The notes below the pieces were generated by a model. It was given only the letters and a program-made list of their open reading frames with translations. It did not search any database and was not told where the DNA came from. From a virus: a stretch of DNA of 23,755 nt. The stretch is from positions 1 through 23,755 of the IMG/VR virus record IMGVR_UViG_3300031612_001205, one strand, 5' to 3'. Below, piece by piece: positions 2,073 through 23,413 of the stretch (positions are counted from its first letter, which is position 1; each line of letters starts with the position of its first letter). A program made the translations under genes and the position numbers.

Positions 2073-3152
2073 TCATGCGGGCAACTGGTTCGATACCCGA
2101 AGTTGCTCCAACGCAATGGCAACCAGCCGTTGATCGAAGATCTTCAGCTTGCGCAGCCCTGCCGCTTCTCCGCCCGCCCAGCCCTTGAGACCTTGCATGA
2201 CACCTTCCACGGTCGGATCGATATCGTCGTGCTGCATCATCCAATCAACGGTCGCCAGAAGTTCCATGCCGAGGGGCGACTCGAAGCCATCAATGGTCGC
2301 CGAAGCCCACTCCAATACGCGCGAGAACTGCTTCCCTTCCCCGGAATTCAGGTATGCTTGCACTCGGTCGTACTTGGCGTCGTCAAACCAAATGAGGTCC
2401 AGCGGATCGGCGTCCGAGAGCCGCTTGTCGCAGCGAAGATAACTGCCATCGAGGCTATCGAGCAGCTTCGTCAGGTTGTGCGAATAGGGCCCGTACTTGT
2501 GGGCTTGGAACCTGAAATTGAGTGCCTCCGTCAATCCAAACCGCGTTACACCACGCTCGAGGAACCAACCCAACTTCTGCACTTCGAGAATCGAGCACTC
2601 GATCCCCAATAGAGCATAACGACGTACCATCTCCGCCACCAAAGCACGGGCCGGGGTCAGCTTCCCGACTCCGGTACGTTTGGCGACGTTCTGGTACTTC
2701 ACAGTCGGCTCGTAGACTAGGACGTTGACACCGTCGAGTTTGCCCAATGCCGCCTCGATCAGTGGACGAACGTCCTGCCAAATGAGTCCACCATTCCCAC
2801 AGCCAAGTGGAGGGATCGCAATTGAACGAATGTTCTTGTCGCGAATTACGCGGACAAGATCTCTCAATCCTTCCTCAACCCATTCTATTTGGGTCTTCAC
2901 ACGCCAATGGGTCTTCGTCGGAAAATTGATGATCCAGTGCGGCCCGAAGAGTTCTTTGTTCTCGGTAACGAACATCTTGCCAATTTTAACTTCGCCGGCG
3001 TCGCAAGCGCGCGCATAGGCTTCGAAGTTGCGGGGGAACTGCTCCTTGAACATCAGAGCAATCCCCTTGCCCATGATTCCGACGGTGTTGACAGTGTTCA
3101 CCACTGCGTCAACGTCGGCCTCCAGCAGATTTCCTTGCGTGTAAGTTACCAT
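2073..3152 (-). CDS. darG: DarG: macrodomain DNA ADP-ribosylglycohydrolase antitoxin
   Basis: DarG removes ADP-ribose from thymidine on DNA and also binds and inhibits DarT. The 359-aa product has an N-terminal macrodomain (about 1-155) with the ADP-ribose-binding signatures NTVNTVGIMGKGIA near residues 18-31, the NFPTKTHWR stretch, and PPLGCGNGGL near 113-122. The C-terminal half (about 165-359, ALLGIECSILEVQKLGWFLE onward) matches the DarG domain that neutralises the toxin directly. Length fits a full two-domain DarG. Its ATG overlaps the darT stop (TGATG, 1 base shared), so the pair is translationally coupled. The gene is noticeably more AT-rich than flanking phage genes, suggesting separate acquisition. 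Confidence 0.93.
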   Translation of the reverse strand: MVTYTQGNLLEADVDAVVNTVNTVGIMGKGIALMFKEQFPRNFEAYARACDAGEVKIGKMFVTENKELFGPHWIINFPTKTHWRVKTQIEWVEEGLRDLVRVIRDKNIRSIAIPPLGCGNGGLIWQDVRPLIEAALGKLDGVNVLVYEPTVKYQNVAKRTGVGKLTPARALVAEMVRRYALLGIECSILEVQKLGWFLERGVTRFGLTEALNFRFQAHKYGPYSHNLTKLLDSLDGSYLRCDKRLSDADPLDLIWFDDAKYDRVQAYLNSGEGKQFSRVLEWASATIDGFESPLGMELLATVDWMMQHDDIDPTVEGVMQGLKGWAGGEAAGLRKLKIFDQRLVAIALEQLRVSNQLPA

Positions 3153-3793
3153 CAGAAATACCAGCCAGGTTGTGCTACGACCTTGAGTTCGAGCCCAACC
3201 TCCTCCCGTTGACGTTCGAGTGTTCTTTTTTCGTTCTCACCCAGGCAGACTATGCCTGCAAGGTGCTCCACTGGCAAGTGCCTGTGTACGAGCGCCTCAG
3301 CCTGGTAGCGATCGGTCTTCTCAGGGTCATCGACGTCACGCTTGAAGTCCCTGCGTTGAAGGATTCCCCAGTCGATCTTGTCCAGATCGTCGAGCGAGGT
3401 GAAGAACTGCGCGGTCTGAAGATAAGCGTGCCGATCCGAGAACACGGTTGCAAGGCCGCGATCTGCCAACCCTCGGAGCGACGACACCATGATCACAATC
3501 TCAGCATTCGGGAACTGCCGTATCCCCCCGTAACCCGTCTTGATATTGTACATCATCATTGAAAAGGGCGTGAAGTAGAACGGGATATAATCCGCCAGCG
3601 TCCCGCCCGGCTGCACGGGCACATTCCTTGCCGTCCGGCGCTGAATCAGTTCGAGGTTCCCAATTCGCACAAAATCGGGATCCTGAACGTCGGAATTCTT
3701 GCAATGCAGCCCATGTCTGAGGATCCACGGCACATTGTTGATGTGCGTGATCCTGAAGATCAGGGCTTTCTCGGCGGTCAGGTTGTTGGCCAT
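3152..3793 (-). CDS. darT: DarT: DNA ADP-ribosyltransferase toxin (DUF4433)
   Basis: DarT uses NAD+ to ADP-ribosylate thymidine in DNA, blocking replication; DarTG systems are toxin-antitoxin modules with known anti-phage activity. The 213-aa product shows the family hallmarks: the NAD-site segment RITHINNVPWILRHGL (14-29) with H17, the PFYFTPFSMMMYNI stretch (71-84), and the YQAEALV motif near 163-169 whose E166 aligns with the catalytic glutamate. Nothing looks truncated, so it is probably active. It is the upstream gene, overlapping darG by one base, and lies 34 bp after the stop of the DUF6362-like gene. Assignment to the DarT1 or DarT2 subgroup, and hence the target sequence, cannot be made from reading alone. 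Confidence 0.92.
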   Translation of the reverse strand: MANNLTAEKALIFRITHINNVPWILRHGLHCKNSDVQDPDFVRIGNLELIQRRTARNVPVQPGGTLADYIPFYFTPFSMMMYNIKTGYGGIRQFPNAEIVIMVSSLRGLADRGLATVFSDRHAYLQTAQFFTSLDDLDKIDWGILQRRDFKRDVDDPEKTDRYQAEALVHRHLPVEHLAGIVCLGENEKRTLERQREEVGLELKVVAQPGWYF

Positions 3794-3827: not shown

Positions 3828-4265
3828 TCAAGATGGTCTATGACGCCCAGCTGCGTCCATCACGAATTCCATCGACCGCTTCGTCGGCACGCGTTTGCCG
3901 TTCAACCGCCAGACGATGACCGCGATGCCATACTGCCAGCGCCGGTTGGCGGTGGCGCGGCTGATGCCCAATTCCCAGCAGATCGGCTTCCAAGGCTTGC
4001 GGTTCGCCCGGAGCCACACAAGGCGAGCGTCTGCCGGGTCCAGCCAGCGCAACCACAGCAGCGCGTCATCGGCTTGGGTGATGTCGCGCGGGCCCGGCTT
4101 CGGCCGCCGCATCCGAGGTTCCTGGCCGACCTGATCGGCGAAGCTGTGGAAATACTCGGGCCACGCGTTGAAGTAGCCTTGGGGCTTCACCTCGGGCAGC
4201 GACCGGAAAACGTCGGCCGCGCTCTCAAGGCGCGTTTCGACCATGGCTGGGGTCCAATCACCCAT
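3828..4265 (-). CDS. DUF6362-like phage protein with helix-turn-helix
   Basis: The 145-aa product starts MGDWTPAMVE and resembles a family I recall as DUF6362 in alphaproteobacterial prophages. Its centre (DALLWLRWLDPADARLVWLRA) is helical and Trp-rich. It is followed by a helix-turn-helix-like segment with KPICWELGISRATANRRW, suggesting DNA binding. The start ATG overlaps the end of the preceding 66-aa frame by 8 bases, so the two are coupled. The open frame runs further upstream to 4433, but that part is a shadow of the neighbour. A small-terminase or regulatory role is possible but not shown. darTG begins 34 bp after this gene, where related phages would, as I recall, continue directly to the methyltransferase/packaging region. 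Confidence 0.75.
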   Translation of the reverse strand: MGDWTPAMVETRLESAADVFRSLPEVKPQGYFNAWPEYFHSFADQVGQEPRMRRPKPGPRDITQADDALLWLRWLDPADARLVWLRANRKPWKPICWELGISRATANRRWQYGIAVIVWRLNGKRVPTKRSMEFVMDAAGRHRPS

Positions 4266-4458
4266 TGGCCGTCTCCCTTGGCTCGACACGCGGGCCGTAG
4301 AGTTTTTCGCCCAGCTGACGGACCAGTTCCTGCTCCGGCCAGGTGAGGCGCGGGTCGTTGATGGACACGGCCAACAGCCCATGGTCGTGCCAGCCGTCCT
4401 GCTTGACGCGATCTGGATCACGGCGCGTACCACCGTAGCCTCGGGGATACCACCTCAC
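4258..4458 (-). CDS. Small phage protein, 66 aa, unknown function
   Basis: A GTG start at 4458 overlaps the RuvC-like gene stop (GTGA, 4 bases), giving a 66-aa product beginning (M)RWYPRGYGGTRRDPDR. The middle (GLLAVSINDPRLTWPEQELVRQLGEKLYG) looks like a folded helical segment with a WPEQELV turn. An in-frame ATG at 4488 exists but would overlap the upstream gene by 34 bases without benefit, so GTG is preferred. It is sandwiched between the resolvase and the DUF6362-like gene with coupled overlaps at both ends, so a phage DNA-metabolism role is likely. No family recognised. Confidence 0.65.
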   Translation of the reverse strand: MRWYPRGYGGTRRDPDRVKQDGWHDHGLLAVSINDPRLTWPEQELVRQLGEKLYGPRVEPRETANG

Positions 4459-4976
4459 GCGACACCCCCGTTCGTTTCGATGGCCCAATGCAGGATGGCG
4501 ATGGCATCCGCCTCGTTGTCATCGGCGGGGCTGAACCCGCGCTCCTGCGCAGCCGCAATCATCGCCACCTTGTCGGCGTTACCCTTCCCGGTGGCATGGC
4601 GCTTGATGGTGCCGACCGGAACACCCTCATAGGGAATGCCGCGGAGTTCGGCCCACGCAGTGAGAGTGGCCATCAGACCGCCATAGACATGGGCAGCGTC
4701 GGTACCGACATGGCGGCGGACTTCCTCGAACCAGATCGCGGCGATGGGGCCTGAGAGCCGGTCGATCTCCGTCAGCCAGTTGGTAAAGCGGAGATATCGC
4801 ATACCGCCGCCGTCGAAACGGCCGGGGCGAAAGGACGTCGTGCCGCTGGTGATCAGGCCGTCATGGCCGCGGATCGCCCAGCCTGTCGTCGTCCCGAGGT
4901 CGAGGGCAAGGATGCAGGACGCGAAAAGGCACCCCGGTTCGAGGTGCAGGTCGGCTGTCTCGGTCGTCGGCGTCAT
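4455..4976 (-). CDS. RuvC-like Holliday-junction resolvase
   Basis: The 173-aa product has the RuvC/RNase H-fold signature. LALDLGTTTGWA gives the first acidic residue (D26); IWFEEV gives the second (E84/E85); KGNADKVAMI precedes the terminal DDNEADAIAI motif (D152/D153 and D157). These residues coordinate the two metal ions that cut branched DNA. In phages these enzymes resolve recombination or replication junctions before packaging. It is the first gene after the 435-bp GTGGGAC-repeat gap and starts a coupled set with the 66-aa and DUF6362-like genes. ATG at 4976 has no strong Shine-Dalgarno sequence. It is probably a phage homologue rather than the host ruvC, since no ruvA/ruvB are beside it. 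Confidence 0.87.
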   Translation of the reverse strand: MTPTTETADLHLEPGCLFASCILALDLGTTTGWAIRGHDGLITSGTTSFRPGRFDGGGMRYLRFTNWLTEIDRLSGPIAAIWFEEVRRHVGTDAAHVYGGLMATLTAWAELRGIPYEGVPVGTIKRHATGKGNADKVAMIAAAQERGFSPADDNEADAIAILHWAIETNGGVA

Positions 4977-5076: not shown

Positions 5077-5345
5077 GTCCCACCTGGTCGTGGGGTGTCC
5101 CACTTGCCGATCAAAGTGGGACGCCAGATTTTCCTTTCAAAACAAGGCGTGTCCCACCTGTCCCACTTGTCCCACCTTTTTCCCTACGTCGCATGAGGAA
5201 GAATGAGGTCGGCCGGGACACGTACGCTCCATATAAGAAAGAGAGAAGTTGGCGGTCCAAGTGGGACAGGTGGGACAGGATTGATTTCAAATGGTTTTTT
5301 CCGTCCTACCTTGCGCTTGAAGTGGGACACGCCGCGAAGTGGGAC
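5077..5345. repeat. Iteron-like array: ten copies of GTGGGAC / GTCCCAC
   Basis: GTCCCAC on the plus strand occurs at 5077-5083, 5097-5103, 5151-5157, 5160-5166 and 5169-5175. Its complement GTGGGAC occurs at 5116-5122, 5261-5267, 5270-5276, 5322-5328 and 5339-5345. The inner copies have an exact 9-bp period (5151/5160/5169 and 5261/5270), and the two clusters face each other across 5176-5260. The core often extends to GTCCCACCTG or GTCCCACTTG. The arrangement resembles binding sites for an initiator or repressor. It is not CRISPR: units are too short and there are no uniform spacers. Confidence 0.8.
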
Positions 5346-5350
5346 AGCGG

Positions 5351-5385
5351 CCAAACGAAAAGGGGCACCCGGATGGATGCCCCTT
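5351..5385 (-). terminator. Rho-independent-type terminator after primase-helicase gene
   Basis: A perfect 8-bp inverted repeat, AAGGGGCA (5360-5367) and TGCCCCTT (5378-5385), has a 10-nt loop. Read on the minus strand it is followed by TTCGTTT, a short T-rich tail. It sits about 27 bp past the primase stop, so it should end the replication-operon transcript before the GTGGGAC array. Confidence 0.65.
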
Positions 5386-5411
5386 CGGTGCCTGACACTG
5401 CCATCGCGATG

Positions 5412-7967
5412 TCAGCCGCACTGCGATCTGCGGTAGCGCCATTCGCGGGTCGCGCCCGTGCCGCTGCGGTATCGCTCCCAATCCCGCGACTTCAGCCAGG
5501 CCCCCACGCGCATCTGGTCGCCCTTGGTCCATTTCGCGGGCTCGATGCCGAGCGCGCCTTCGAGGATTTCGCCCACCGACACATCGCGGATCGGCTCGGG
5601 ACGTTCGAATTCTTCATCCTGCCAATCATCCCAGCCGGCGTGACCGCGATTGACGCTGCGGGTGTCGTGGGTCAGCCAGCGGTCGATACGGGCGTCCCAG
5701 GCATCGGCCTGATAGCGCGCCTCCTGCGCGGCGGCGGCTTCGGCAAGCAGCGCCGGATCGTCAAGCCACCAGATCGCGCCTTCGCGGAAGCGATGGACGG
5801 CTTCGGCCCAGATCTGACCACGGTCGCGGGCCAGCGCCGCGATGTCGATGGTGCCGCAGCGTAGCGGCCAGAATCGGCGATTGCCGGTTTCATCGCGCAG
5901 ATAGGTGTCGGGGTTCACAGTGCCAGCGAACACGCACTGGCGCGGCACCTCGACGGTATAGCGGCCATAGGGCGGGCGGAAGCGGTCGGTGGTGCGGGTC
6001 AGGAAGGCCTTGATGCGCGAGACCTCGGCCCGGCCGATGGCGTCGAGCTCGGCGATTTCCACGATCCAGACGCCCTGCATGTGAATGGCCGCGTCCTTGG
6101 ACCCAAGCTCGGGCAATTCGTCGGTGAACCAGTCCTCGCCCGCGAGCACCTTGATCGCGGTGGATTTGCGCGCGCCCTGCGGCCCTTCGAGGATCAGCAT
6201 GTGATCGGCCTTCACCCCGGGCCGGTAGATCCGGGCCACGGCAGAGATCAGCCAGAGCGCGCCGATGGTGTGATGGAAGGATGTCGGCGCTGCACCGAGG
6301 TAGGTGCTGGTCCAGGTCTCGATCCGGGGCGTGCCGTCCCATTTCAGGGTGTCGAGCCAGTCGCGAACCGGATGGATGCGCATGTCGCGGGCCACCGCGC
6401 CGACACCACGGCCGACAACCATCGGGGCGACGTTGAGCCCGCGCAATTGCAGCCATTCGGCGGTGCGCACATCGTCGGCATCGTCCCAGGGGCGCGGAAA
6501 GCGGATGGCCGGGTCATCCCAGGGCAGCGGCTGGCGCACCACGATGGATTGGGCGAACTCGTCGAAGGCCAGGAGACCGGCAAAGACCGGATCCGAGGAC
6601 AGGGCGATGATCACATTGGCCTCGTTGCGCTCGGGCGTGCCGGACAGATCCTGACACAGCCGCCCAAACCAGGCGGGACGCGCAATCCTGCCCTGCGGAT
6701 CGCCCGTCGCATGCACGCGGCGGCGCAGTTCCGTCAATTGCTTGTCGAGGATGGACATGGAGATGCCGGTCGCAGTCTTGATCCGGGCAAGGATCTGGCG
6801 TTCGGGCAGCGGATCGAGCCGGGCAAGCGCAAGGCGGCCGAGAAGGCTGGAGAGTGCGGCGAGTTCGGGCGGGTTGGTCAGCGCCTCGGCGGCGGCAATC
6901 AGAACGTCCGGATCGCCAGGCGTCGGAGCTGCCGCTGTCGTCATGGCCTCAATACCGACCGGCTCGTCTGCCGAAATATCCCGGCTATAGTCGGCCGCAC
7001 GCGCCCCGCGCATCAGATCGTCGTTGAAATCATCACCATGCAGCGGGACCACGATTTCGTTCGGAATGTCGGCCCGGTTCAGCCGATCCGACAGGGTCGC
7101 AGCGGCCTGACGACCGGCATCGCCAGCATCGGCGTAGATCGTGATCCGCGTCGTGCCCGCCGGCCACTGAAACCGCGCGAGCCCGTCGGCAGAGAGTGCC
7201 GCCCAGACAGCGGTGCCGAACAGGGCATGTGCTGTCAATGCTGTCTCGATGCCTTCAGCGATGCCGAGGTGGCCGTCCGCAGGCATGGCGAACAGGCGCA
7301 CGGCCGCATCCGCTACCGATCCCAGCATCTTCTTCCCGGCGGGGCCCTTGGCGCTGCCGTCGTCGAGCAGGAAGGTCCGGTGAATACCCTGCGCGCGAGT
7401 GCCATCCACCAGGCGTGGCAATGCGATCAGCCCCGGCCAACCGCGTCGCGTGTCGAAATCCGGCAGGTCGGGGTGGAACAGCAGATCCGGGCATCCCGGA
7501 TCAGCAAGGCCGCGGGTGCGGAGGTAGGTTTCGCCGGGGGTGCCAGCGAGCGGCTTTGCGCCATCGACCAGCCGGGCAATCTCGCCGGTATGATCGGGCT
7601 TCCCGCGTGGCGCGTTTCGGGGCGCGGGATGATCCATTCCGGCAATCCGCGCCGCCTCGTCGAAGAGCGCGCCATCGCAGAGCCCGGTTGCCTGCGCGAT
7701 CAGGTCGATGGGCCCTGCGCTTTCGCCGGTGGCATAGTCGAACCCCCAGCCGGCATAGGGCCCGTCGAGATGGATCGTGCAGGACCCTTCCTTGCGCGGC
7801 GGGCGGCCGGACAGGTCGGCACAGCGCAAGGAGCGACGGTCGCGCGCAAGCCGCGCCTCCGGAAAGATGCCGGGGAGCCAGTCGCCAGCTGTCGCCGCCA
7901 GCCGGTCCTTAACGGCCGCCAGATCGTGGCGTGCTTTCGGCGTGCCGACATCGTTGAGATCGATCAT
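5412..7967 (-). CDS. Phage primase-helicase: Toprim domain plus VirE-type ATPase
   Basis: This 851-aa protein combines priming and helicase modules. The N-terminal half resembles phage/plasmid primases. A possible primase/zinc-finger-like region at 1-115 lacks an obvious Cys4 set. It is followed by a Toprim domain with IAEGIET (236-242) and the metal-binding YADAGDAGRQAA stretch (278-289). The C-terminal half (about 500-760) is a virulence-associated-E (VirE/VapE) P-loop ATPase: Walker A EGPQGARKST at 594-603, Walker B VWIVEIAE at 633-640, and the typical NPDTYLRDETGNRRFWP at 685-701. Such proteins initiate phage or satellite replication. ATG at 7967 has GAGGGGG upstream; the helicase stop lies 9 bp before it. 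A terminator follows the gene. The first residues, MIDLND, recur in neighbouring genes. Confidence 0.9.
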   Translation of the reverse strand: MIDLNDVGTPKARHDLAAVKDRLAATAGDWLPGIFPEARLARDRRSLRCADLSGRPPRKEGSCTIHLDGPYAGWGFDYATGESAGPIDLIAQATGLCDGALFDEAARIAGMDHPAPRNAPRGKPDHTGEIARLVDGAKPLAGTPGETYLRTRGLADPGCPDLLFHPDLPDFDTRRGWPGLIALPRLVDGTRAQGIHRTFLLDDGSAKGPAGKKMLGSVADAAVRLFAMPADGHLGIAEGIETALTAHALFGTAVWAALSADGLARFQWPAGTTRITIYADAGDAGRQAAATLSDRLNRADIPNEIVVPLHGDDFNDDLMRGARAADYSRDISADEPVGIEAMTTAAAPTPGDPDVLIAAAEALTNPPELAALSSLLGRLALARLDPLPERQILARIKTATGISMSILDKQLTELRRRVHATGDPQGRIARPAWFGRLCQDLSGTPERNEANVIIALSSDPVFAGLLAFDEFAQSIVVRQPLPWDDPAIRFPRPWDDADDVRTAEWLQLRGLNVAPMVVGRGVGAVARDMRIHPVRDWLDTLKWDGTPRIETWTSTYLGAAPTSFHHTIGALWLISAVARIYRPGVKADHMLILEGPQGARKSTAIKVLAGEDWFTDELPELGSKDAAIHMQGVWIVEIAELDAIGRAEVSRIKAFLTRTTDRFRPPYGRYTVEVPRQCVFAGTVNPDTYLRDETGNRRFWPLRCGTIDIAALARDRGQIWAEAVHRFREGAIWWLDDPALLAEAAAAQEARYQADAWDARIDRWLTHDTRSVNRGHAGWDDWQDEEFERPEPIRDVSVGEILEGALGIEPAKWTKGDQMRVGAWLKSRDWERYRSGTGATREWRYRRSQCG

Positions 7968-14740: not shown

Positions 14741-15334
14741 TCACGCTGCTTTCGAACCGTCCCACTCGGTCCCGATCCCGCGCATGGCGAGGTCGAGCCG
14801 CAGGCGGGCGATGTGACGGTAGAGGGCGGAACGGGAGGTGCCGGTACGCTCGACGATCTCTGCGACAGCGCAGGTGCCAAGCGCCGCGCAAAGCCCGCGG
14901 GCATCCTCGGGCAGGCCGCCCAGCACCCGGGCGAGATCGTGGAGGGTGTCGGCGTCGTCCGTGGCAGAGCGGTCCTGCCCATGCCAGGCGGCCAGACCAT
15001 CGGCTTCCGCCAGCAAGCAGCCCAGCGGCTCGGTCGCGCCGGAAACGGGGGCGTCGAGCGAAAGCACAGTGCCGCCCTGCATGCGCCGCTGGCGATGATG
15101 GCGGATCGCAATGCGCGAGGACTGGTTGCGCAGGACGATGTTGGCGAAAGCGCCGATGCTGCCACGGCGCGCGTCGAAGCCGGGCAGCCGACAGATCAGG
15201 TCGACCAGCAGGTCCTGGCGGAGATCGTCGAGATCGGCGGCAGGCAGCACCAGCTTGCGATGCAGGCGGCGCGCGGCAAAGGCCGCCTCGTCGATCAGCG
15301 TGGCAAGATCATCGGGGGAAATCGGCGGAAACAT
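14741..15334 (-). CDS. Sigma-70-like (ECF-type) transcription factor
   Basis: The 197-aa product has the two-domain plan of a small sigma factor. Region 2 spans about 33-85 (DLDDLRQDLLVDLICRLPGFDARRGSIGAFANIVLRN, then a basic IRHHRQRR). Region 4 spans about 140-187 (LPEDARGLCAALG, AVAEIVERTGTSRSALYRHIARLRLDL), the latter a clear helix-turn-helix. Such phage-encoded factors can direct host RNA polymerase to phage promoters. It sits between the LexA-linked pair and the replication genes, so it may relay the switch (inference). The 108-bp upstream gap holds an inverted repeat just before the start. It could instead be a sigma-like DNA-binding protein without core-binding activity. Confidence 0.8.
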   Translation of the reverse strand: MFPPISPDDLATLIDEAAFAARRLHRKLVLPAADLDDLRQDLLVDLICRLPGFDARRGSIGAFANIVLRNQSSRIAIRHHRQRRMQGGTVLSLDAPVSGATEPLGCLLAEADGLAAWHGQDRSATDDADTLHDLARVLGGLPEDARGLCAALGTCAVAEIVERTGTSRSALYRHIARLRLDLAMRGIGTEWDGSKAA

Positions 15335-20176: not shown

Positions 20177-23100
20177 ATGTCCGATATTTCCGACCTGATC
20201 CTGACCCTGTCACCCGAAGACGGTTCCACCATCGGCAACGGAGCCATGCTGGCGCTGCTGCGCGAGCACATGCCGGACCTGGCCGAGGACGACTACATCG
20301 CCGCGCGCGATGCGCTGATCGATGAGGGGGTGCTGGGGCGTGGCAAGGGGCGTGGCGGGTCGATCTTTCGCGTTACCGACGATCTGGACGATGAGGATGA
20401 CGACCTGGACGAGGATGAGGGCGATGAGGACGATGGGTTCGAACTGACCCACACCATCGATCCCGCGCCGCGCCAACGACGGGCCAAGACCGGGAAGAAG
20501 GCCGCGCGCCGGCCGGACGGGCCGGTGCAGGTGCTGTCCTACCGCCACGGCGAAACGCGGGTGAACAACCCCGAGGTCGGGATGGTCCATGCCGGCACCG
20601 ATCCGGATGGCGACAAGACGGTCTGGGCCTATGACCCGCATCTCGATCCGGTGCTGAATTTCGACTCTGCGCGGGCGGGGATCGAACGGCTCATCGACGA
20701 CGCGCTGGCCAGCGATGATGCCGAGCGGATGAAGGACGCGCTGCAGGAGCTGAAGCGGCTGCAGGCGCCCTATCTCAACTGGACGGGCAAAGCGGAGCGG
20801 ACGAGCGTCGCGGTCGATACCGTCTCGCTGCATGTCCATGAACGGGTGGACCCGGCGACGATCCTCGCCAATGCGGCCAGGCGGCTGAAGGGGAAGGATG
20901 CGGCGACGCAGTGGCAGCAGCCTGACCTGTTCGCGGCGCCGTTCGAGAACCTGCCGCTGCGCCAGGCGCTGGATTTCTACCACCACGAGAAGGGCTGGTC
21001 GAACCGGCTGGTGGCGGGCGACAGCCTGCTGGTGATGAACTCGCTCCTGACGAAGGAGAGCATGGGCGGCAAGGTGCAGATGATCTACATCGACCCGCCC
21101 TATGGCATCAAATACGGGTCGAATTTCCAGCCCTTCACGAACAAGCGCGACGTGAAGGACCGCTCGGACGACGACCTCACCCAGGAACCCGAGATGATCA
21201 AGGCGTTCCGGGACACCTGGGAACTCGGCATCCACTCCTATCTCACCTATCTGCGCGACCGGCTGATGCTGGCGCGGGAACTGCTCGCGGATTCCGGTTC
21301 CGTTTTCATGCAAATATCCGATGACAACCTGCATCACGTCCGAGAAATCATGGATGAGGTGTTTGGGGCCGAACATGTTGTGGGGATTATCACCTTCAAG
21401 AAAACATCTGGAGCCGGAAGCCCTACGGGCGGAACGGAGGTCCTTGCAGAGGTTTCCGACTACCTCGTTTGGTACGCCAAAGACCGACAACAGGTGAAAT
21501 ACCGCCAAGTTTATCGCGACAAGAAGGTCGGAGGTGACGGCGGCTCTGGCTATTCAATGATGCAGGACGAAAGCGGTGAACGTCGCCGCCTTCGCGACGA
21601 GGACGGACCGGACGCAAGAGCGTTTACACCCGACAATCTGACGTCGCAAAGCTCGGGCGGCCCGCAATTTTTCGACTGGAACTTCGATGGGCAGACTTTC
21701 TCGAACACCAAGAGCGGCTGGAAAACTACCCGCGACGGCATGCAGAAGTTGAATCGAGCGCGAAGGCTATATGCAGCCGGCAACACGCTTCGCTATGTTC
21801 GCTTCGTCGACGATTTTCCAAAGTTTCCAATCAACAGACTTTGGGACGATACAACGACTGCGGGCTTCGGCGATCCCAAGAATTATGTCGTCCAGACCAA
21901 TTCAAAGGTCGTTGAAAGGTGCATGCTGATGACCACCGATCCCGGCGATCTGGTGCTCGATCCGACATGCGGCTCCGGCACCACCGCCTTCGTCGCCGAG
22001 AAATGGGGGCGGCGCTGGATCACCTGCGACACGTCTCGCGTGGCGATCACGCTGGCCAAGCAGCGGTTGATGACCGCCAGCTTCGACTACTACGCGCTGC
22101 GCTATCCGCACGAGGGGCTGGGGGGTGGATTCGACTATGAAACCGTCCCGCACATCACGCTGAAAAGCATCGCCAACAACCCCGACATCGACACCATCCA
22201 TGACGAGGATCACCCGAAGATCGCGGCGGCGCTGGCCGACCTGAACGCCGCGCTGACCGCCAGCCCACCAAAGCCGCTCAAGCCTGCGCAGGGCGTGCGC
22301 AAGGGCAAGCCGGTGGACTTCGCCAAGGGCGACACCCTGCATGAATGGGAGGTGCCCTTCGACTGGCCCGACGATTGGCCCGAGTCCGCTCGCGCGCCCT
22401 TCGATGCCTTCCACGCCGCCCGTCAGGCGATGCAGCGCCGTATGGACCAGAGCATCAGTGACCATGCCGAGCAGGAGACGCTCTACGACAAGCCGCGCAT
22501 CGACCGCTCCAAACTGCGCATCTGCGGACCCTTCTCGGTCGAGGCGGTGCCGGCGCCCACCGTCCTGTCGCTGGACGACAGCATCCCGCCGCAAGAGGCC
22601 GACGAGACCGTCGCGCGCTCCGGCGAGACCTCCCGCCAGGCGCTGTGGCGCGACGAACTGCTCAAGACTGGCGTGCGCGGCAAGGGCGGCGCCATACTCC
22701 GCTTCGCCGAGTTCGAGACGCTGCCGGGGCTGAAGCACATCCATGCCAGCGGGTCGCTGGCCGAGACGGGCGAACGCGTCGTCGTCAGCTTCGGCCCCGA
22801 GCACGCGGCGCTGGAGCAGCGGCAGGTGGAACTGGCGCTGACCGAGGCCGAGACCCTGCGCCCGTCGCCCAAATTCATCCTGTTCTGCGCGTTCACCTTC
22901 GACCCCGAAGCCGCGAAGGACATCGACGAAGTGAACTGGCCTGGCGTCACGCTGCTGAAGGCGCAGATGAACACGGACCTTCTGACCGAGGATCTGAAGA
23001 AGGGCCGCAGTTCCAACCAGTCCTTCTGGCTGATGGGCCAGCCCGATGTGGACCTGCGAAAGCGCAAGGACGGGCTGTGGGAGGTTCAGGTCAACGGCTT

Positions 23101-23413
23101 CGACTATTTCGATCCGCGCAAGGGCGATCTGGTCTCGGGCGGCACCAAGCAGATCGCGATGTGGTCGCTGGACGTGGATTACGATAACCGATCCCTGATG
23201 CCGCATCAGGTGTTCTTCCCCATGGCGGATGCCAAGGGCGGCTGGAACCGCCTGCGCAAGACCGTGCGGGCCGAACTGGACGAGGACCTGCTGGAGCAGT
23301 TCCACGGCACCGTCTCGCTGCCCTTCGAGGCGGGCGACAACCGGCGCATCGCGGTCAAGATCGTGGACGACCGCGGGATCGAGACGCTCAAGATCATGTC
23401 GCTGGAGGGATAA
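20177..23413 (+). CDS. Type III-like adenine-specific DNA methyltransferase (Mod-type, large)
   Basis: The 1078-aa protein is much longer than a usual Type III Mod (about 600-700 aa). Residues 1-60 form a winged-helix-like segment (GNGAMLALLREHMPDLAEDDYIAARDALIDEGVLGRG), followed by an acidic DDLDDEDDDLDEDEGDEDD tract at about 67-85. The catalytic core is beta-class: DPPYG at 306-310 (motif IV), then a target-recognition region, then DPTCGSGTT at 595-603 (motif I), which binds SAM. The C-terminal 400 residues form an extra domain ending KIVDDRGIETLKIMSLEG. Bases about 21290-21945, encoding the recognition region, are clearly more AT-rich than the rest. The gene ends 4 bp before the helicase-restriction subunit, indicating a restriction-modification operon. 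Confidence 0.88.
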   Translation: MSDISDLILTLSPEDGSTIGNGAMLALLREHMPDLAEDDYIAARDALIDEGVLGRGKGRGGSIFRVTDDLDDEDDDLDEDEGDEDDGFELTHTIDPAPRQRRAKTGKKAARRPDGPVQVLSYRHGETRVNNPEVGMVHAGTDPDGDKTVWAYDPHLDPVLNFDSARAGIERLIDDALASDDAERMKDALQELKRLQAPYLNWTGKAERTSVAVDTVSLHVHERVDPATILANAARRLKGKDAATQWQQPDLFAAPFENLPLRQALDFYHHEKGWSNRLVAGDSLLVMNSLLTKESMGGKVQMIYIDPPYGIKYGSNFQPFTNKRDVKDRSDDDLTQEPEMIKAFRDTWELGIHSYLTYLRDRLMLARELLADSGSVFMQISDDNLHHVREIMDEVFGAEHVVGIITFKKTSGAGSPTGGTEVLAEVSDYLVWYAKDRQQVKYRQVYRDKKVGGDGGSGYSMMQDESGERRRLRDEDGPDARAFTPDNLTSQSSGGPQFFDWNFDGQTFSNTKSGWKTTRDGMQKLNRARRLYAAGNTLRYVRFVDDFPKFPINRLWDDTTTAGFGDPKNYVVQTNSKVVERCMLMTTDPGDLVLDPTCGSGTTAFVAEKWGRRWITCDTSRVAITLAKQRLMTASFDYYALRYPHEGLGGGFDYETVPHITLKSIANNPDIDTIHDEDHPKIAAALADLNAALTASPPKPLKPAQGVRKGKPVDFAKGDTLHEWEVPFDWPDDWPESARAPFDAFHAARQAMQRRMDQSISDHAEQETLYDKPRIDRSKLRICGPFSVEAVPAPTVLSLDDSIPPQEADETVARSGETSRQALWRDELLKTGVRGKGGAILRFAEFETLPGLKHIHASGSLAETGERVVVSFGPEHAALEQRQVELALTEAETLRPSPKFILFCAFTFDPEAAKDIDEVNWPGVTLLKAQMNTDLLTEDLKKGRSSNQSFWLMGQPDVDLRKRKDGLWEVQVNGFDYFDPRKGDLVSGGTKQIAMWSLDVDYDNRSLMPHQVFFPMADAKGGWNRLRKTVRAELDEDLLEQFHGTVSLPFEAGDNRRIAVKIVDDRGIETLKIMSLEG

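Follow-up and report, generated by a model that had tools for sequence, protein, structure and literature searches.

In SaPI, PICI and SCCmec elements, iterons lying directly 3′ of a helicase gene constitute the origin or putative origin, and in SaPI, PICI and SCC elements these iterons are bound by the C-terminal domain of the helicase, as described in excerpts of PMC7581432 and PMC6092414; the same excerpts provide the account of the SaPI/PICI rep-ori module (Ubeda et al. 2007, as cited in PMC7581432; also PMC6092414). Here we describe an array of this general organization in a viral DNA stretch of 23,755 nucleotides (IMG/VR record IMGVR_UViG_3300031612_001205; the window hereafter), a 23.8-kb fragment with a serine integrase. 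Comparison of its sequence with those of relatives leads us to propose, with high confidence, that the array is a phage replication origin of the SaPI/PICI type, which would be bound by the adjacent primase-helicase.

Ten exact copies of the heptamer GTGGGAC are found within 269 bp, as reported in the initial annotation, and the array that they form fills the gap between the start of the RuvC-like resolvase gene (4976) and the end of the primase-helicase gene (5412), with 66 bp separating it from the primase-helicase stop codon (Table 1). A single further copy is present in the window, at 14759; the resulting 11 copies compare with 3.4 expected and were reached in 0 of 100 shuffles. The extended repeat unit approximates (A/G)(A/G)GTGGGACA. 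Together the sites define a dyad of about 270 bp with 12 positions, of which 10 are exact, one carries a single mismatch and one is degenerate, and mirror pairing as good as this arises under random placement with a probability of 0.003 for the exact sites and in 0 of 5000 placements when the one-mismatch site is included. The two iteron sets flanking the spacer, a feature required of a SaPI/PICI-type rep-ori, are hence mirror-image arms. The initial annotation had correctly recognized the inner copies as being 9 bp apart and oppositely oriented on the two sides, but missed the mirror symmetry of the outer copies; the more AT-rich centre that it described is borne out by the composition (51% AT versus about 35% for the window), although the enrichment is modest and the richest blocks lie partly elsewhere, namely in the right arm (Table 1), at 5124-5148 (60%) and, inside the centre, at 5228-5250 (70%).

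Table 1. Coordinates of the array components and of neighbouring features in the window.
Feature	Coordinates	Strand	Remarks
Iteron array, proposed replication origin	5077..5345	.	12-position dyad, axis near 5213
Iteron, left arm outermost	5077..5083	-	exact GTGGGAC, mirror of 5339
Iteron, left arm	5097..5103	-	exact GTGGGAC, mirror of 5322
Counter-oriented iteron, left arm	5116..5122	+	exact GTGGGAC, mirror of 5303
Three iterons at 9-bp phase, inner left arm	5151..5175	-	exact GTGGGAC at 5151, 5160, 5169; mirrors of 5270, 5261, 5252
Dyad central spacer, candidate melting region	5176..5250	.	51% AT
Degenerate iteron GCGGTCC	5252..5258	+	mirrors 5169; relatives have an intact GTGGGAC here
Two iterons at 9-bp phase, inner right arm	5261..5276	+	exact GTGGGAC at 5261, 5270
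AT-rich block, right arm, inner cluster to counter-oriented site	5277..5303	.	67% AT
Counter-oriented iteron GTAGGAC, right arm	5303..5309	-	one mismatch
Iteron, right arm	5322..5328	+	exact GTGGGAC, mirror of 5097
Iteron, right arm outermost	5339..5345	+	exact GTGGGAC, mirror of 5077
Primase-helicase (DUF7146, TOPRIM, VapE-like helicase), proposed initiator	5412..7967	-	domain matches
Primase-helicase C-terminal region, aa 726-851	5412..5792	-	co-varies with iteron class
Predicted winged helix, aa 798-846	5430..5576	-	structure prediction
Arg834 codon, first wing strand	5466..5468	-	Gln in all tested GGTGAC-type phages of the family
RuvC-like resolvase, the array's other neighbour	4455..4976	-	does not track iteron class
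G+C-rich hairpin then TTTTCGTTT, putative terminator of primase transcript before array	5358..5386	-	-25.7 kcal/mol, z -4.3

The hairpin between the primase-helicase gene and the array is kept in relatives; it is absent from the list returned by a consensus terminator scan, and an Rfam scan of the window found no known RNA. Close to the array, a DarT-like ADP-ribosyltransferase adjoins a macro-domain (DarG-like) protein (2073-3793), and the two probably constitute a DarTG toxin-antitoxin pair. The window further codes for a 1078-aa N6/N4 DNA methylase (20177-23413) and a small protein with a weak match to sigma-70 region 2 (14741-15334).

A DNA-similarity search of GenBank phages gave two weak matches alone, and relatives were therefore taken, via the primase-helicase, from viral contigs and from named genomes, the latter mainly of Rhodobacterales (such as Paracoccus, Gemmobacter, Rhodovulum and Tabrizicola). 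Most of the 130 distinct primases have an array downstream, those without one being mostly cut by contig ends. The initial annotation had raised the prospect of an array that is absent or random in close relatives; instead, its positions and orientations are kept in most classes of relatives, with an outer pair of sites, a single counter-oriented site, an inner group of two or three and a spacer followed by the mirror image of the same. The heptamer itself switches at nearly all sites of an array together, in both orientations, yielding GTGGGAC, GTGGGACC, GTGGGGC, GTAGGG, GTTGGGAC, GTTGGGG and GGTGAC types. The commonest hexamer has a median of 11 copies and a minimum of 7 in the array regions, as against a median of 5 in control 700-bp stretches elsewhere in the loci, 3.8% of which reach at least 7. 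Inner sites are phased at 9-10 bp in most classes, but some members of the GTTGGGAC class have a spacing of 16-20 bp; given this variation and the presence of 9-bp phasing in the P4 crr too, we dropped the earlier suggestion that an odd 9-bp phase favours wrapped or filament-like binding. A dispersed host repeat was likewise set aside, there being one array per phage contig with a layout that travels with the phage genes.

In class A relatives, 22-1403 bp lie between the primase stop codon and the start of the array, and nearly all relatives have ruvC approximately 100-370 bp downstream of the array. Many relatives carry cargo between the helicase gene and the array, and in these ruvC is the constant array neighbour. 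This primase-array gap is a cargo slot with convergent genes in four loci, which respectively hold an IetA/IetS defence pair (L115, 8618-12344), an HATPase protein with a weak restriction-enzyme match (L111, 8656-10671), a 1352-aa protein of no assigned function (L130, 8698-12756) and a 376-aa protein with only a weak glyoxalase-like Pfam match (L151, 8631-9761). Another locus, L143, has two differing arrays 3′ of one primase gene, a GGTGAC-type array (4226-4510) and, beside ruvC, a CTCACA-type dyad (about 4630-4880) that may belong to another initiator. Relatives of the RuvC protein in a further set of loci (L212, L229, L237, L246, L220, L232, L226, L223) have upstream arrays of quite different motifs (CAGATT, GTGAGCC, GGGAATGT, CAGTTTCG, TTGAAAG), some with the same mirror layout. 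Searching for GTGGGAC itself, an approach that speaks to the recurrence of the arrangement and not to its frequency, recovered dyads directly 3′ of other helicase families (DUF5906/Pox_D5, D5_N, DUF927 and AAA_25) in loci with no detectable relative of the window's RuvC. One of these, 3′ of a D5_N helicase gene on a 62.9-kb contig (L053, 6074-6395), has 13 GTGGGAC sites in an almost perfect dyad with six exact mirror pairs.

Sliding identity comparisons revealed that the primase of L099 is close to that of the window except for the last ~125 residues, and the L099 array is of the GTTGGGG type. Counting the changes of seven iteron classes on protein trees for 106 loci, we obtained 12-13 for the C-terminal slice. 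The primase body required 31, other 125-residue slices of the primase 29-33, and shuffled labels about 57. For other proteins, compared with the C-terminus on the same loci, the counts were 25 for RuvC (C-terminus 11) and 26 for Cas4, 29 for the SF1 helicase and 24 for DUF6362 (C-terminus 11-13). The association between array and C-terminus holds across 2-5.5 kb of cargo inserted between the gene and the array. At the nucleotide level, the primase genes of L343 and L165, whose array types differ, are 88-97% identical, versus 68% in the last 100 nt, and the mosaic boundary runs into the primase 3′ end in both L099 and L343. The array and the 3′ end of the primase gene appear to have been exchanged together by recombination, creating replication-specificity types. 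Because the array sequence and the C-terminus switch together, the adjacent primase-helicase is the most likely binder of the array.

Within the C-terminal region, which is predicted to adopt a winged-helix fold (the best structural match of its model being weak by itself, with E 0.12 and TM 0.35), residue 834 is placed on the first wing strand. Gln occupies this position in 17/17 GGTGAC-type loci, and the other loci (89/89) have Arg or Lys; the six supported independent pairs all agree (sign test p = 0.031), and the residue tracks the repeat type in several different backbones. Loci fetched afterwards display the same pattern, with Gln834 in 23/23 GGTGAC-type arrays and Arg/Lys in 22/22 of the GG(G)AC type. 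The rule fails to explain L354, L357 and L360, which combine TGGTAACC and TGGAAACC arrays with Arg, Gln and Gln, respectively, and does not extend to Marinobacter phage PS3, a distant phage from outside the family that has Arg at this position with a GGGGTGACC array. Arg reading G and Gln reading the A of a T:A pair are common protein-DNA preferences, and the Arg/Gln switch at 834, a putative DNA contact, fits them. We give an even chance to the proposal that, within this primase-helicase family, residue 834 (Arg/Lys versus Gln) contributes to the choice of base pair recognized at iteron position five (GTGG-G versus GTGG-T), and that origin and wing are exchanged as a cassette to generate specificity types, with which related prophages would be able to share a cell and not fire each other's origins.

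The helicase core matches SaPI PriRep1 (7PDS) in profile comparison (E 4.5e-59), and 7PDS, the nearest solved structure, also ranks first in a fold search, for which alone the full-length AlphaFold model was used, being poor over the helicase (mean pLDDT 67). By this homology, the protein is a putative self-loading helicase of the Rep type. GC skew over three relative contigs has no flip at the array and is uninformative. We propose that the primase-helicase acts as the initiator, with its C-terminal winged helix binding each heptamer; that the mirror-image arms would load a pair of helicase rings, oriented towards each other from either side of the centre; that AT-rich DNA between or beside the arms would be melted; and that the fused TOPRIM primase would then begin synthesis. 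These steps, from binding and ring loading to the place of melting, and the origin activity itself are inferred.

The initial annotation had proposed either origin iterons or a multi-site operator, and the switching of the C-terminus with the array favours the former. As an operator, the array would be the target of a phage repressor or activator that recognizes the heptamers and regulates the ruvC operon or the replication genes, an explanation with which its position upstream of ruvC in nearly all relatives accords, as does its staying by ruvC when cargo parts it from the primase gene. We nevertheless consider an operator unlikely: the heptamer switches with the primase-helicase C-terminus and not with RuvC or DUF6362 (the two candidates compared), the dyad recurs 3′ of other helicases in loci without a detectable relative of this RuvC, a scan of the primase-ruvC gap for sigma-70-type promoters found none of this type, and a one-sided promoter needs no mirror symmetry over 270 bp.

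The closeness of the primase 3′ end and the array in class A means that some of the co-variation could be linkage. It would be linkage entirely if array-centred recombination blocks dragged along the primase 3′ end and another protein were the real binder, and the entry of the mosaic boundary into that end is in line with such blocks. This is quite improbable, because RuvC, equally near on the other side, fails to co-vary and because the association persists across the inserted genes; moreover, residue 834 and the repeat type go together in several backbones and in the fresh loci, and no other tested protein tracks the repeat type. Clustered inverted short repeats also occur at parS-like and packaging sites, and one relative (G001) encodes a ParB-like domain fused to a methyltransferase, but we regard a role of the array in partition (as a centromere-like site) or in packaging/recombination, with this helicase or some other protein as the binder, as very improbable, given that in the examined loci the ParB-like gene is not linked with the array and that the constant feature across families is the linkage to a replicative helicase.

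The relative G001 (49.8 kb), with the same array, codes for portal, major head, tape measure and tail proteins, and by kinship with it the array module would belong to a tailed temperate phage. Phage identity was settled from the portal, head and tail genes since the terminase families PF03354 and phrog_2 were found in few relatives. Classification of the window as a PICI satellite, i.e., a helper-dependent element with no virion genes, was rejected in view of the G001 virion genes and the same kinship argument. An origin organization of SaPI/PICI satellites is in this way placed in a widespread tailed-phage lineage of Rhodobacterales. The kind of architecture is already known; its occurrence in full-length phages, the swapping in the manner of a cassette and the correlation with a single residue look new, and a limited literature search found no later report of such a module in tailed phages. 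The natural switches amount to about 150 initiator-origin pairs with a specificity that should be predictable from sequence, and these pairs make testable how a viral initiator helicase recognizes its origin, which base the wing residue reads, and whether the replication types of prophages behave like incompatibility groups.

Among the known systems, the lambdoid O-protein origin resembles the window in having iterons read by a phage initiator; however, lambda has its iterons within the O gene, and the O protein is no helicase, unlike the intergenic array 3′ of a helicase gene seen here. In P4 (X51522), the alpha primase-helicase gene is followed on its 3′ side by a terminator and then by the crr, which has type-1 repeats in both orientations, some of them 9-bp phased, comparably to the window. 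However, P4 has a separate ori and crr, the iteron core GGTGAACA and a crr made of two direct 120-bp repeats. Relatives G001 and G004 have a single array per contig instead of this bipartite organization, and the wing motif has no visible sequence resemblance to the P4 alpha C-terminus. The putative origin of SCCmec Cch2, as presented in excerpts of PMC7581432, shares with the window the placement of repeats 3′ of a D5-type helicase gene, binding by the isolated C-terminal domain paralleling what we propose here, and an iteron, AAGTG, that resembles the start of AAGTGGGAC here; it differs in having only three iterons, in direct rather than mirror-image arrangement, and in the helicase family. 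SaPI/PICI elements, as far as the excerpted accounts go, are similar to the window in having iterons immediately 3′ of the gene for the initiator helicase, in the two sets flanking a spacer, in an initiator C-terminus expected to read the iterons and in a helicase homologous to PriRep1 (7PDS). Their rep-ori has an AT-rich melting region between the sets; at the array described here, AT content is 51% in the centre and 60-67% in the flanking blocks, against about 35% in the window. Finally, unlike the SaPI/PICI versions, the module of the window belongs by kinship to a temperate phage lineage, has a primase of the TOPRIM (DnaG-like) type, and displays a 12-position dyad of stereotyped form, each arm of which includes a counter-oriented site.
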